64,000 bases of DNA from Pseudorhodoferax sp. Leaf267 (GTDB lineage Bacteria > Pseudomonadota > Gammaproteobacteria > Burkholderiales > Burkholderiaceae_C). Under the pieces are notes generated by a model. The model worked only from the letters and a program-made list of their open reading frames with translations. It had not been told where the DNA came from and did not search any database. The translations under genes were made by a program, and so were the position numbers. The DNA is taken from contig NZ_LMMV01000001.1 of the NCBI RefSeq assembly GCF_001422405.1, positions 745,275 through 809,274 on the forward strand, read 5' to 3'. Each line of letters begins with the position of its first letter. The first letter of the stretch is position 1. Positions 1-63,336 of this stretch are shown piece by piece.

Positions 1-142
1 TGAACCAGCGCGAGGCGCCGACACGGGCGCGTTCGAGCAGGTGGGAGGCGCGCTTGCGAATGGCCGTGGTCGTGCGCAGCGCGGCGGCCGCGCCCTCGGC
101 GTGTTGCGTGTCCAGCTCGGAGCTGATGCCTTCGAACGTCAT
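1..142 (-). CDS. DUF1688 (URC4/urg3-like) protein, N-terminal part only
   Basis: Only the first 47 codons lie in the window; the rest runs off the left edge. The visible protein begins MTFEGISSELDTQHAEGAAA and continues with an Ile-Arg-Lys-Arg segment of the kind found at the start of DUF1688 proteins. That family is known as URC4/urg3 in the yeast-type uracil catabolism pathway, where its exact reaction is not settled. The start at 142-140 is set by a strong GGAGG ribosome-binding site on the minus strand. The neighbour upstream in the same direction is a GTP cyclohydrolase II-like gene, the usual partner (URC1). The family call rests on a short stretch plus this context. Confidence 0.65.
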   Translation of the reverse strand, partial: MTFEGISSELDTQHAEGAAAALRTTTAIRKRASHLLERARVGASRWF

Positions 143-206
143 GCGAAAACCTCCGTGCTGCGCACTGCGGTGCGAGCTGGCTTGGGGCGGCCCGGTGCAG
201 ATGTCA
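142..206 (-). repeat. Second tandem copy of the short ATGA-junction repeat (65 bp)
   Basis: Read on the minus strand, this unit runs from a TGA at 206 to the A that completes the ATG of the DUF1688 gene. It shares the GCACCGCAG core and the CGCAG block with the adjacent copy at 207-269, and it ends with GGAGG seven bases before the ATG. It therefore supplies the ribosome-binding site of the downstream gene. Its left half is more diverged than that of the other copies. Confidence 0.7.
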
Positions 207-266
207 TGGGGGTACCTTCGCACTGCGTGCTGCGGTGCTGAGCCTCTTCAGGCGGCCGTGCGAGGC

Positions 267-269
<3 letters not shown>
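207..269 (-). repeat. Copy of the 63-bp ATGA-junction repeat
   Basis: Read on the minus strand, the unit starts exactly at the TGA stop of the GTP cyclohydrolase II-like gene (269-267). It ends 63 bp later, just before another TGA that is preceded by A. It contains TGAGCCTCGC, GGCCGCC, GCACCGCAG and GAAGGTA blocks. The same blocks, in the same order, recur at 60871-60939 and 61387-61449. It is followed directly by a second, more diverged copy at 142-206. Confidence 0.8.
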
Positions 270-1526
<1,257 letters not shown>

Positions 1527-10361: not shown

Positions 10362-11875
10362 CGCTTGCGCCCGCCGAAGATCCCGCCCAGCACGCCGCGC
10401 AGGATCTCGTTGCCCACCTTGGTGCCCATGGTGCGCACCGTGGACTTGGCCATGGTCTGCACCAGGCCGTCGCGCTTGCCGCCGCGCGGGCCGGTGCTGC
10501 CGAACAGCAACTCGTTGAGCCCGCCCATCAAGCCGCCGCCGTCGGCCTGCTGGGTGGCGGCCTTGCTCTGTGCCTGCGCGGCGCCGGCCGCAGCCTCCTC
10601 GGTGCGGCCCTTGAGCTTCTCGTAGGCCGATTCGCGGTCCACCGTCTTTTCGTAGACACCGGCCACCAGCGAGTTCTGCAGCAGCACCTGGCGCTGCGCG
10701 GCGGTGATCGGGCCGATCTGGCTGCCCGGCGGCAGCATGTAGACGCGCTCGGTGATGCCGGGGCGTCCCTTGGGGTCCAGCAGGCTCACCAGGGCCTCGC
10801 CCACCGCCAGCTCGGTGATCGCGGCCTCGATGTCCAGTCCGGGCTTGGGGCGCATGGTGGAGGCGGTCGCCTTCACGGCCTTCTGGTCGCGTGGTGTGAA
10901 CGCGCGCAGCGCATGCTGCACGCGGTTGCCGAGCTGGGCCAGTACGGTGTCCGGGATGTCCAGCGGGTTCTGTGTCACGAAGTACACCCCTACGCCCTTG
11001 GAGCGCACCAGCCGCACCACCAGCTCGATGCGCTCGACCAGCACCTTGGGCGCCTCGTTGAACAGCAGATGCGCCTCGTCGAAGAAGAACACCAGCTTGG
11101 GCTTCTCCGGGTCGCCGATCTCGGGCAACTGCTCGAACAGCTCGGACAGCATCCACAGCAAAAAGGTGGCGTACAGCCGCGGCGAATTCATGAGCTTGTC
11201 GGCCGCCAGCACGTTGACCACGCCCTGGCCGACCTCGTTGGTCTGCATGAAGTCGTTGATGTCCAGCATGGGCTCGCCGAAGAACCTGTCGCCGCCCTGG
11301 CCCTCGATCTGCAACAGGCCGCGCTGGATGGCGCCCACGCTGGCCGCGCTGATGTTGCCGTACTCGGTCGTGAAGGTCTTGGCGTTCTCGCCCACGTGCT
11401 GGAGCATGGCGCGCAGGTCCTTGAGGTCCAGCAGCAGCATGCCGTTGTCGTCGGCGATCTTGAAAACCAGGTTCAGCACGCCGGCCTGGGTCTCGTTGAG
11501 GTTCAGCATGCGGGCCAGCAGCAGCGGCCCCATGTCGGAAATGGTGGCGCGCACCGGGTGGCCCTGCTCGCCGAACACGTCCCACAGCTGCACCGGGCAG
11601 GCCAGCGGGGCAGGGGGCTCGATGCCGCGCTCGGCCAGGATGGCGGCCATCTTGGGGTTGGTGCCCCCGGGCTGGCTGATGCCGGTGAGGTCGCCCTTCA
11701 CGTCGGCCATGAAGACTGGCACGCCGATCCTGGAAAAGCCTTCGGCCAGGGTTTGCAGGCTCACGGTCTTGCCGGTGCCGGTGGCGCCGGTGATCAGGCC
11801 GTGGCGGTTCGCGAGGCCGGGGAGCAGTTCGCAGTGGGTGTTGGTGTTCTTGGCAATCAGCAGTGGCTCGGCCAT
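10358..11875 (-). CDS. HerA-like/YjgR family ATPase (DUF853)
   Basis: This 505-residue protein has Walker A GATGTGKT at residues 30-37, a Walker [14 protein letters not shown] near residue 265, and an AGDLTG-like VKGDLTG segment. That is the layout of the YjgR/DUF853 helicase HerA-like family. An Ala/Gln-rich linker at about 420-445 precedes a short C-terminal region ending GGIFGGRKR. Members are widespread in proteobacteria, but their role is not established; a DNA-translocase or nucleic-acid ATPase function is inferred from HerA. It is divergent from yebC and followed by an alpha/beta hydrolase with a GTGA overlap. Confidence 0.88.
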
Positions 11876-12661: not shown

Positions 12662-12744
12662 ACCCCCCCGCTCTGCACTTCGTGTCGTCGCTGCCCCCCG
12701 AGGGGGCGCTCGACCTCCTAGAGGCGGCTCGTCGGAGGTCGCCA
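12659..12744 (+). repeat. 86-bp spacer between yebC and purD with TGA...ATGA architecture
   Basis: The spacer begins with the yebC stop TGA, contains a C-run/G-run hairpin (CCCCCCGAGGGGGC at about 12695-12708) and ends with CGGAGG eight bases before the purD ATG. Its last base is the A of that ATG, so the next three bases again read TGA. The C-rich opening and the hairpin resemble intergenic repeats common in Comamonadaceae genomes. That comparison is from memory and was not searched. It differs in sequence from the 63-bp repeats elsewhere in the window but has the same stop-to-start layout. Confidence 0.6.
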
Positions 12745-60500: not shown

Positions 60501-60873
60501 GAAGCCCTTGCTCAGCGCATCGCAGGACGTGGACCCGGGCCGGGTGTTCGAACTCGCAGCCGAGCTGTTCGGCGTGCTGTCCACGCCGATGCGGCTGCGC
60601 ATCCTGTCGGCACTGTGCGGCGGCGAGCGCTCGGTCTGGCAACTGCTCGAGCAGGTCGACACCACGCAGCCCAACCTGTCGCAGCACCTCAACGTGCTGT
60701 ACCGCTCGGGGCTGCTGGCGCGGCGCAAGGAAGGCACGCAGGTGCTCTACCGCGTGCAGAGCGAGCGCGCCGTGATGCTGTGCCGCGCCGTCTGCACGCA
60801 GATCGCCATCGAGGTCGACGAGCCGGTGCAGGTGCCGACATCCGAACGCCTGGTGGGGCGGGCCGTGCCATGA
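60499..60873 (+). CDS. soxR: ArsR-family regulator of the sox cluster, possible persulfide sensor
   Basis: The winged-helix repressor reads VFELAAELFGVLSTPMRLRI, then QPNLSQHLNVLYRSGLLARR (recognition helix) and GTQVLYRV. Counting from ATG 60499, Cys40 and Cys95/Cys99 occupy positions like those of the dithiol pair in SqrR/BigR-type persulfide-sensing repressors. ArsR-type SoxR repressors control sox genes elsewhere. Upstream starts at ATG 60484 and TTG 60478 are possible but fall inside the putative operator. Its TGA is the first codon of a repeat copy leading into soxC. Confidence 0.82.
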   Translation: MKPLLSASQDVDPGRVFELAAELFGVLSTPMRLRILSALCGGERSVWQLLEQVDTTQPNLSQHLNVLYRSGLLARRKEGTQVLYRVQSERAVMLCRAVCTQIAIEVDEPVQVPTSERLVGRAVP

Positions 60874-60939
60874 GCCTCGCCCAGCCGCCCGAAGACACGC
60901 ATCACCGCAGCGCGCAGCGCGACGGTATTCCTGGGAGCC
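60871..60939 (+). repeat. Copy of the ATGA-junction repeat at the arsR-soxC boundary (69 bp)
   Basis: The unit starts at the arsR stop TGA and runs 69 bases to another TGA at 60940. It has TGAGCCTCGC, CCGCCCGAAG, TCACCGCAG, CGCAGCGCGA and GGTATTCC blocks in the same order as the copy at 207-269. Read from the ATG at 60870 it is open and encodes an N-terminal extension of SoxC (SLAQPPEDTHHRSAQRDGIP...). The former soxC start was probably ATGACGCGGG at the second junction, now CTGACG. Confidence 0.75.
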
Positions 60940-61386
60940 TGACGCGGGCGCCCGAGGGTTTTCTCAATGCTGCGCAGATCCGCGAGGTGCGGGCGGGCCG
61001 GCGCAGCTTCCTGGCCGGCGCGATGGCGGCAGCACTGGCCGGCGGCGCACGCGCAGCCGGCGAGGGCGACCAGGAGATCCTGGAGCTGCCCGAGCACAGC
61101 AAGGCTCTGGGCCAGCCCGTCGCCGCGCGTGGCTACGGCCAGCCCAGCGTATGGGAGCAAAACCTGCAGCGCCGCGAGAGCCCGGGCCTCACGCGCGTGC
61201 GCCGGTCCAGCGTGAGTTTCTGCCCGCTGCAGGGGCTGTTCGGCATCGTCACGCCCAGCGGGCTGCACGTCGAACGACACCACCAGGGCTGGTGGGACAT
61301 CGACCCGTCGCGCCACCGGCTGATGCTCAACGGCAGCGACGCCACCATGCTCCAGCGCCCCATGGTGTTCACGATGGACGCGCTCA

Positions 61387-61449
61387 CTGGACTACCTTCG
61401 GCCTGACGGCCTGCGGTGCGAGCGCCTTCGGGCGGCCGGGCGGCGCTCA
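61387..61449 (-). repeat. Inverted copy of the 63-bp repeat inserted inside soxC
   Basis: Read on the minus strand it starts TGAGCGCCGC and holds GGCCGCCCGAAGG, GCACCGCAG and GAAGGTAGTCCAG, ending before another TGAGCGC. The bases GCGCTCA occur at both ends (61380-61386 and 61443-61449), which is a 7-bp target duplication. Removing 63 bases restores the conserved SoxC reading DALMRLPSVSR. Confidence 0.85.
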
Positions 61450-62289
61450 TGCGCCTGCCCAGCGTGAGCCGCATGCACTTCATCGAATGCGGCGCCAACA
61501 CCGGCATGGAATGGGGCAACGTCGCCGTGCCCACGGTGCAGTACACGCACGGCATGCTCAGCTGTAGCGAGTACACGGGCGTGCCCTTGCGCGTGCTGCT
61601 GGAGATGTGCGGTGCCGACTTCAAGCGCGGGCGCTTCGTGCTGGCCGAGGGCGCCGATGGTTCGGGCATGACGCGCACCATTGCCATCGAGCAGGTTCTG
61701 AACGACGAAGTGTTGGTCGCTTACGGCCAGAACGGCGAGATGCTGCGGCCCGAGAACGGCTACCCGCTGCGCCTGGTCGTGCCGGGCGTGCAGGGTGTCA
61801 GCTGGGTCAAGTACCTGCGCCGCATCGAGCTGGGCGATCTTCCCTGGGCGACCAAGGACGAGGCTATCCACTACATCGACCTGATGCCCGACGGCCGGCA
61901 CCGGCAGTACACCTCGGTGCAGGAGGTCAAGAGCGTGATCACCTCGCCCAGCGGCGGCCAGATGGTGCTGGAGAAAGGCTTTCACAACATCACCGGCCTG
62001 GCCTGGAGCGGGCGCGGCAAGGTCCGGCGCGTTGACGTCGCGGTGGATGGCGGGCGCAACTGGCGGCCGGCGCGGCTGCAGGCGCCGGTGCTGTCCAAAT
62101 GCCTCACACGGTTCCAGTGCAACTGGGCCTGGCACGGCGAGGCCGCCCTGCTGATGAGCCGCGCCGTCGACGAGACCGGCCATGTGCAGCCGACCTATGC
62201 GGCCCTGCGCCAGCGGCGCGGCACGCGCAGCATCTACCACAACAACGCGAGCCAGACCTGGCTGGTGGAGCCTGGCGGCGAGGTGCGCA

Positions 62290-63336
62290 ATGTCCAGCTG
62301 TCGTGATGCGCTGCTGCTGGCGTGCGCCTTGGCCGGCACGGCTGCGCTGGCGCAGGCAACGCGCTTTGACGGCATCGGCCGCGGTGCCACGCCGGCCGAG
62401 GTTGCGGCCTGGGACATCGACGTGCGGCCGGACTTGCAGGGCCTGCCGCGAGGGCAGGACACGGTGCGGCGCGGCGAGCAGATCTGGGAGGCGCAGTGCG
62501 CGTTCTGCCACGGCAGCTTCGGCGAGAGCAACGAAGTCTTCCCGCCCCTGGTGGGCGGCACCACGCCCGATGACATCCGCCAGGGCCGCGTCGCCGGCCT
62601 GCTGCCCGGCGCCAACACGCCAGTGCGCACGACCATGATGAAGGTGGCCCACGTCTCCACGCTGTGGGACTACATCCGCCGCGCCATGCCGTGGACCGCG
62701 CCCCGGTCGCTGACGGTGGACGAGGTCTATGCCGTGACGGCCTACATGCTGAACCTGGCACACGTGCTGCCCGACGACGGCGCGCTGTCGGACCGCAACA
62801 TGCGCGAGGTGCAGCAGCGCATGCCGAACCGCGAGGGCATGGACACGCGCCATGCCATGTGGCCGGGCCAGGCGTTCGGCGCGCTGTCGAAGCCCGACGT
62901 GCAGGGCTCGGACTGCATGCGCGACTGCCCGGGCCAGGCCCACGTGGCCGGCCGTCTGCCGGACCATGCACGTGACGCGCATGGCAACCTGGCCGAACAG
63001 TCGCGCGGCATCGGTGCCACGCGCGGTGTGCAGACCACGGCACAGGCGCAGGGCGCAACGCCTGTCCCCGCCACCGAAGGCGCGGCGCTGATGCCCATGC
63101 TGCAGAGGAACGCGTGCCTGGCCTGCCATGCCATGGACGCGAGGCTGGTCGGCCCCTCGTTCCGCGAGATCACAGCCCGTCACGCGGGCCAGGCCGATGC
63201 CGCTGCCTACTTGGCCGGCAAGACCCAGGCCGGCAGCCAGGGCGCGTGGGGCAATGTGCCCAAGCCCGCCCAGACCCTGCCCGAGGCCGATGCCCGGCGG
63301 ATCGCGCAGTGGCTGGCGGCAGGGGCCGCGCCATGA
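62290..63336 (+). CDS. soxD: Sulfane dehydrogenase cytochrome subunit SoxD
   Basis: The 348-residue exported cytochrome has a signal peptide (ALLLACALAGTAALA) and two c-type haem sites, CAFCH at residues 70-74 and CLACH at 276-280. It forms the Sox(CD) complex with SoxC and takes electrons from the outer sulfur of SoxY-bound cysteine persulfide. WDIDVRPDLQGLPRGQDTVR and AYMLNLAHVLPDD are SoxD-like. The start overlaps the soxC frame by 17 bases. The gene is intact although soxC is broken. Confidence 0.93.
   Translation: MSSCRDALLLACALAGTAALAQATRFDGIGRGATPAEVAAWDIDVRPDLQGLPRGQDTVRRGEQIWEAQCAFCHGSFGESNEVFPPLVGGTTPDDIRQGRVAGLLPGANTPVRTTMMKVAHVSTLWDYIRRAMPWTAPRSLTVDEVYAVTAYMLNLAHVLPDDGALSDRNMREVQQRMPNREGMDTRHAMWPGQAFGALSKPDVQGSDCMRDCPGQAHVAGRLPDHARDAHGNLAEQSRGIGATRGVQTTAQAQGATPVPATEGAALMPMLQRNACLACHAMDARLVGPSFREITARHAGQADAAAYLAGKTQAGSQGAWGNVPKPAQTLPEADARRIAQWLAAGAAP

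Follow-up and report, generated by a model that had tools for sequence, protein, structure and literature searches.

The window, i.e. the whole stretch of 64,000 nucleotides of Pseudorhodoferax sp. Leaf267 DNA analysed here, begins with two successive minus-strand genes, namely a GTP cyclohydrolase-like gene (URC), which ends in a TGA stop at 269-267, and a DUF1688 gene, which starts with an ATG at 142-140. The gap between them consists of two tandem repeat units and no other sequence (Table 1). Their 3' ends read GAAGGTACCCCCA (unit 1) and GGAGGTTTTCGCA (unit 2), each directly followed by TGA, and the two units align without gaps over 36 nucleotides at 75% identity. An earlier sequence-only reading had described units of 63 and 65 bp that fill this gap, with the upstream TGA placed first and a GAAGG or GGAGG followed by an A joined to TGA placed last, and both the tandem arrangement and the layout are exactly as it had them. 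Unit 1 continues in frame into unit 2 to form a single 43-codon ORF, which overlaps the upstream TGA with its ATG and the ATG of the DUF1688 gene with its own TGA.

Table 1. Features of the repeat loci in the window, with the basis of each assignment
Feature	Position	Strand	Basis
DUF1688 gene start, extends past window edge	1..142	-	Pfam PF07958, E 5.3e-141
43-codon ORF spanning units 1 and 2	139..270	-	translation
Repeat unit 2, 65 bp, last base is the A of the DUF1688 ATG	142..206	-	covariance model, 66.6 bits
GGAGG Shine-Dalgarno-like motif ahead of DUF1688	150..154	-	sequence
Hairpin 2 of unit 2, stem 165-162 with 158-155	155..165	-	sequence; family covariation
Repeat unit 1, 63 bp, opens with the upstream gene's TGA stop	207..269	-	sequence and genome/profile matches
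GAAGG Shine-Dalgarno-like motif, unit 1	215..219	-	sequence
Hairpin 2 of unit 1, stem 230-227 with 223-220	220..230	-	sequence; family covariation
Hairpin 1 of unit 1, stem 268-262 with 246-240	240..268	-	sequence; family covariation
Upstream GTP cyclohydrolase-like gene (URC)	267..1526	-	Pfam PF12471/PF00925 (GTP_CH_N, GTP_cyclohydro2)
Repeat copy after ArsR-like gene, in frame into soxC-like gene, 3' RTG lost	60871..60933	+	profile match, translation
Repeat copy antisense within soxC-like gene, at antisense ATGA	61387..61449	-	profile match, congener comparison

Two further copies, which the same reading had placed at 60871-60939 and 61387-61449, are genuine copies of the repeat. Both lie in the gene at 60870-62306, which we take to be soxC-like and whose later part matches the Pfam Oxidored_molyb domain (molybdopterin oxidoreductase). 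This gene has one unit as its N-terminus and is interrupted by the second, antisense unit, with which its frame stops at 61406, and is hence split in the window's genome. Two congeners are uninterrupted at the site of the antisense copy (MDELMRLPSVSR and MDELMRLPAVSR). On the antisense strand their sequence at this point is CGCATGAGC, in which an A once more directly precedes the TGA.

The unit recurs in the window's 6.53 Mb genome (G000) far beyond chance, with 16 blastn matches at E≤1, 12 matches at E≤1e-3 in a further search, and 38 matches at E≤1e-3 in a covariance-model search, six weak ones among which look by eye like another repeat. Within the window itself, the CRCCGCAG core occurs at chance level only. 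The unit is present in all six Pseudorhodoferax genomes, i.e. that of the window and five congeners (G001-G005), the latter with 20 to 50 covariance-model matches apiece. The wider samples were searched with stricter scoring filters, with the loss of weak matches, and counts include the window's own genome: at E≤1e-9 the unit was found in 65 of 150 genomes of the family Comamonadaceae (60 of 141 genera), and it was recovered from two of 120 genomes in a sample of the order and two of 274 in a sample of the class, in each case both from the same family (Comamonadaceae). A scan of named genomes returned seven stretches, from six Pseudorhodoferax and one unclassified Burkholderiales MAG. The window has no match in Rfam at gathering score, and the literature, mainly open-access, yielded no account of the Pseudorhodoferax repeat. 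No matches to the unit were present among 50,697 phage records; positions 10786-10815 of a viral contig (L317, IMGVR_UViG_3300020472_003935) exactly match a pattern of the unit's 5' half, which may be host flank. A different dispersed repeat, with a CCCCCT(C/T)GGGGGGCAGCGA-like core, is seen at 12688-12706 of the window (minus strand) and at G000:C2:64931, C2:21158, C1:184441, C4:79456, C26:167339 and C24:177318. It has the unit's GGCCGCCC hairpin core in six weak matches, whose flanking coding strand is opposite, and is possibly the BRE of Hot et al.

ATGA-type gene overlaps are usually taken as signs of translational coupling, and it is at such overlaps that most copies of the unit lie. Of 133 mapped copies from the six Pseudorhodoferax genomes, the 124 that reached 38 bits were classified. 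The copy set was drawn from the listed matches of the other genomes down to E 1.3e-6 and from own-genome matches up to E 1e-3 (20 stretches were taken around weaker ones, eight of which were used). Genes were called with a home-made codon model trained on the window, with plasmid annotations as an independent check. The upstream gene is on the same strand as the unit in 122/124 copies and the downstream gene in 116/124, and the upstream stop falls exactly on the unit's first TGA in 101/124. Full same-strand junctions account for 96 of the 124, the remaining 28 not being simple junctions; among the 30 best copies (≥80 bits), 24 are full junctions and six are not, two of these six being tandem second units. 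Across 39 other genomes (37 genera by label), each represented by one copy, the best listed of the 65 positives, the upstream stop is at the first TGA in 37, and one of the exceptions is a tandem second unit. In all four annotated plasmid records with a match, the TGA of the unit is the annotated end of the upstream CDS; the downstream CDS starts 65 bp later in two and at the overlapping ATG in two. As a background, the two strands of the window hold 675 RTGA tetranucleotides and three possible gene overlaps among 27 close same-strand pairs. The location at ATGA junctions beyond chance that had been predicted from the window is supported, with 101/124 stops on the first TGA as against 3/675 RTGA that are possible overlaps. 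The junction as the target holds in part: 96/124 copies are full junctions, but the antisense ATGA inside the soxC-like gene is also occupied, which implies that RTGA itself is the target and not only the gene junction. The unit at G000:C12:496672-496742, whose 5' end is altered, lies inside a long open frame that continues through it, and may be an internal protein segment.

The same sites can be read without the unit in relatives. We queried 23 junctions (9 + 14, the nine being the first of 11 prepared) with their flanks joined as if unit-free; 18 were readable in relatives and five had no readable relative. At 18/18 readable junctions one or more congeners show the RTGA overlap minus that unit, in line with the expectation that relatives without the repeat retain an ATGA overlap. 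In 17 of these it is a bare overlap, and in the eighteenth (G005:C26:44921) a single unit comes after the RTGA in the relative, as against two in G005. At G000:C25:44867 small in-frame indels lie just upstream in the relatives. A frame check of 22 relative sites found the RTGA in all, its TGA closing an upstream frame that is open over 110 codons or more, and a downstream frame of at least 89 codons from the RTG in all but two: the URC site of G005 (2 codons, with the next ATG five bases on) and a site with 26 codons before a second unit. For instance, the URC pair is joined by a plain ATGA in G002, G003 and G004, differs by 5 bp in G005, and carries another unit, of 77 bp, in G001 at the same base as the units of the window. 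Likewise, the pair encoding LapB and a PfkB kinase (Pfam) is joined by a plain ATGA in G001-G004, and has one 62-bp unit in G000 and a 140-bp insert (63+77) in G005. The 77-bp units (L207 and L102) have extra sequence between the hairpins, that of L207 including a CCCCCTCAGGGGG hairpin, and occupy the same RTGA sites. At G000:C25:267697, G001, G003 and G005 have a different insertion of 95-98 bp at the same stop (L216, L217 and L218), which starts TGAGCGCGCAGGCGAGGGGCCCCG and is perhaps another junction repeat.

These comparisons bear on the direction of change. A tree of the LapB locus (2,914 columns) places the window's genome outside ((G001,G002),(G003,G004)),G005; G000 is therefore the outgroup of the other five, and sites filled only in G000 cannot be polarised by these relatives. 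Two other sites can: at G004:C1:185530 the unit is in G004 and G001, G002, G003 and G000 are plain, and at G005:C20:3728 it is in G005, with G001-G004 plain and G000 contiguous over 199 bases. With both sister and outgroup empty, gain is the simplest direction at either site. At the URC pair G002, the sister of G001, is empty, and the unit of G001 and those of the window would most simply be separate insertions at the same base, i.e. two events as opposed to one gain and three losses; however, unit 2 of the window and the unit of G001 have a core subtype in common, so that this is a matter of parsimony and not proof. At the LapB-kinase site one old insertion with a loss and two insertions are equally good accounts. 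At G003:C14:118804 the unit of G003, or an insertion of similar length, is also present in G001, G002 and G005, whose matches have 57-59 additional bases, roughly one unit. Its sister G004 (L243) has none, a pattern suggestive of exact loss or recombination.

The ends of the unit indicate what is duplicated upon insertion. In the 67 copies flanked by a purine (A or G) at either end, the left and right purines are uncorrelated (Fisher p=1.0), and a four-base RTGA duplication is rejected on this ground. Inspection of the empty sites by eye showed the left purine usually to be that of the relative, with G005:C20:3728 as an exception, and the right purine to follow the unit. Hence, at most TGA is repeated, and the purine of the new start codon is supplied by the unit. 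A duplication of TGA that preserves both stop and start, as posited by the sequence-only reading, stands insofar as TGA is at most repeated on both sides, with the amendment that the downstream purine is not a copy of that of the target. The TGA on either side of the unit may be a target duplication of the MITE type or may belong to the unit itself.

The lengths of the units follow a rule of frame. With the phase defined as the frame of the downstream gene relative to the unit's left RTG, the 96 junction copies comprise 62 of phase 0, 29 of phase 2 and two of phase 1, three being left without assignment. When the 93 assigned copies are grouped by related downstream flanks, the resulting 76 groups give 50, 23 and 1 for phases 0, 2 and 1, with two mixed, i.e. 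the third frame (phase 1) is seen in one of 74 single-phase groups. In the other genomes the corresponding counts are 7, 27 and 1 of 35 junctions, the phase-1 case being the first unit of a tandem; the phase-2 class thus makes up 29/96 junction copies in the genus and 27/35 in other genomes. Lengths are mostly 60 or 63 bp in phase 0, where the unit is fused in frame to the downstream gene (fusion), and 62 or 65 bp in phase 2, where it bridges the two genes (bridge). The right-hand TGA is kept in 23/24 bridge copies versus 23/48 fusion copies (p=5e-5, copies not grouped by relatedness). A bridge needs this TGA as its stop and a fusion does not, and the contrast in retention therefore suggests that the frame is read; to our mind it is the best evidence for this. 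We do not use the openness of the frame itself as evidence of coding, as the two other frames are also open in 173/186 cases. In 14 of the 62 phase-0 copies, including the window copy at 60871-60933, there is no RTG 55-70 bases on, such that the unit is the N-terminus of the protein there. A Shine-Dalgarno-like motif is absent before 11 of 73 starts. The proposal that the unit hands the downstream gene a new ribosome-binding site agrees with the GAAGG/GGAGG-like motif that is usual in the unit, and has to be amended for the 14/62 fused copies in which the unit serves as the N-terminus instead.

An alignment of 103 distinct copies supports 14 pairs in three helices, which constitute two hairpins, the first with an inner helix. 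The pairs are formed in 94.6% of cells as opposed to 80.0% in shuffles, and double-change cells number 189 versus 53.5 in shuffles (0/500 shuffles being as high), while a slid-partner control gave 4 to 10. The model behind the alignment already included part of the helices, and relatedness among the copies likewise tilts the result in their favour; even so, the slid control and the exchanges of GC for CG and AU are strong. The hairpins may have a role in the RNA, in single-stranded DNA while the unit moves, or in both. Occlusion of the Shine-Dalgarno-like motif by hairpin 2 was considered and rejected on folds of two unit strings and the window junction: the outer A-U pair is without covariation and the tandem junction of the window folds otherwise.

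Taken together, we think it likely that the unit is a small non-autonomous mobile repeat that inserts at (A/G)TGA, nearly always at co-directional gene overlaps and in the orientation of the genes. After insertion the upstream gene would still terminate at the TGA of the target, and the unit would contribute a pair of hairpins, in most cases a GAAGG/GGAGG-like motif and, ahead of the second TGA, the purine for a new start codon. Ribosomes stopping at the upstream TGA would restart at the overlapping ATG or GTG and translate the 20-21 codons of the unit; with a fusion (60/63 bp) they would continue directly into the downstream gene, and with a bridge (62/65 bp) they would terminate at the TGA that shares bases with the downstream start codon and reinitiate there. 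The unit itself would be moved by an enzyme acting in trans. Dispersal, sites with and without the unit, its orientation and target, the two-frame rule and the covariation of the hairpins are observed directly, whereas we infer that the unit is translated, and that this coupling is the reason for which it is tolerated.

A variant of this explanation, compatible with it, is that insertion occurs at many RTGA or other sites without any targeting of junctions, and that only insertions at overlaps survive as harmless; we give this about an even chance. It would readily account for the antisense insertion within the soxC-like gene, which sits at an ATGA, and for the copy read through inside the long frame at G000:C12:496672. 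With 675 RTGA to three overlaps in 64 kb, either the filter or the targeting must be strong. However, the well-conserved copies are biased too, 24 of the 30 best being full junctions, though the copies are undated.

As to the mover, a REP-type hairpin mobilised by a RAYT (Y1 transposase) comes to mind from the short hairpin form of the repeat and a single PF01797 match in G000 (C1:1096843-1097127), but we regard this as very unlikely: Y1_Tnp is found in 44/65 unit-bearing versus 68/85 other genomes of the family (p=0.09, in the wrong direction), which leaves 21 of the 65 with the unit but no PF01797 hit at E≤1e-3, and the unit-rich G177 and G219 (22 matches each) are not among the genomes listed with one. 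The RAYT as mover is thus unsupported, there being no association across the 150 family genomes. A single Y1 match is likewise what many of the 112 family genomes that have one possess. We hold it to be very unlikely that ectopic gene conversion among homologous overlaps, and not transposition, has spread the copies, since, for all that tandem copies, shared cores and an apparent exact loss would suit such a process, the downstream flanks are unrelated between groups and many filled and empty pairs differ by precisely one unit. Extremely improbable is vertical inheritance of the unit as a cis-regulatory RNA that belongs to certain operons, with the unit-free sites as losses, for while it would accord with the two covarying hairpins, the Shine-Dalgarno-like motif and the semblance of a loss in G004 at G003:C14:118804, the unit is carried by unrelated gene pairs, 66/76 junction groups are seen once, and there are single-species units with both sister and outgroup empty.

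The reading we favour, i.e. a mobile repeat landing on RTGA, has several implications. The filled and empty operons of sister species, together with the two frames, amount to a natural experiment on whether it is termination-reinitiation that renders an insertion harmless, and also on how MIRU-like elements move. Moreover, the repeat presents a route by which existing proteins may acquire new N-termini, and the start sites of genes behind such units are to be annotated with care.

To our knowledge, mobile repeats that land on the stop/start overlaps of operons are known only from mycobacteria. These MIRUs (mycobacterial interspersed repetitive units), which Supply et al. are said to have described in 1997, reportedly come in tandem copies of 77-101 bp with DTGA as their target. 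We posit that repeats landing on overlaps have probably evolved separately in the Comamonadaceae, where they would be kept in the two frames passable to ribosomes, and where a change from 62 to 63 bp would switch a bridge peptide to an N-terminal extension, thereby generating new N-termini. Other short repeats resemble the unit in part. The BREs (Beta-proteobacterial repeat elements), as far as the accessible part of their description goes, are dispersed and tandem with variable copy number in Bordetella and Comamonadaceae, are about 90 bp long (75-91), and lie between convergent genes at 4/13 tabulated Bordetella loci (Hot et al., 2011; PMC3110155); by description they share dispersal, tandem arrangement and presence in the Comamonadaceae with the unit, but are longer, and that part reports no stop/start architecture for them. 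The SAS/ESAS of cluster K mycobacteriophages are 13 bp sequences at gene starts with a Shine-Dalgarno core, some with inverted repeats; they differ in lying in phage genomes, and the accessible text describes neither a TGA/RTGA target nor an ORF across the repeat (PMC3203893). The enterobacterial RU-1 to RU-3 are small mobile hairpin repeats with open frames that are sometimes fused in frame to genes, but they measure 103-168 bp, duplicate TA and lie in multiple intergenic regions, with no stop/start target in the portion of their description available (PMC2759123). The closest parallel is with the MIRUs, which in the available part of a 2025 review are mobile-looking, insert at start codons and have an ORF of their own coupled at a -4 nt spacing (PMC12548453). 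Compared by this described architecture, our repeat is likewise short and mobile-looking, with its own ORF coupled to the flanking gene. A DTGA-type overlap is occupied by 101/124 and 37/39 copies and is found unit-free, as RTGA, at 18/18 junctions; the bridge class has an ORF that overlaps its neighbouring genes at both ends, an arrangement from which the fusion class departs. The differences are another host phylum and a length of 60-65 bp versus 77-101 bp. As far as is known, the MIRU picture so far includes neither a fusion class (60/63 bp) nor sister species with precisely matching filled and empty sites, and both are added here. By analogy, then, the repeat would work like a MIRU in its bridge form, from which it is set apart by the phylum of its host.
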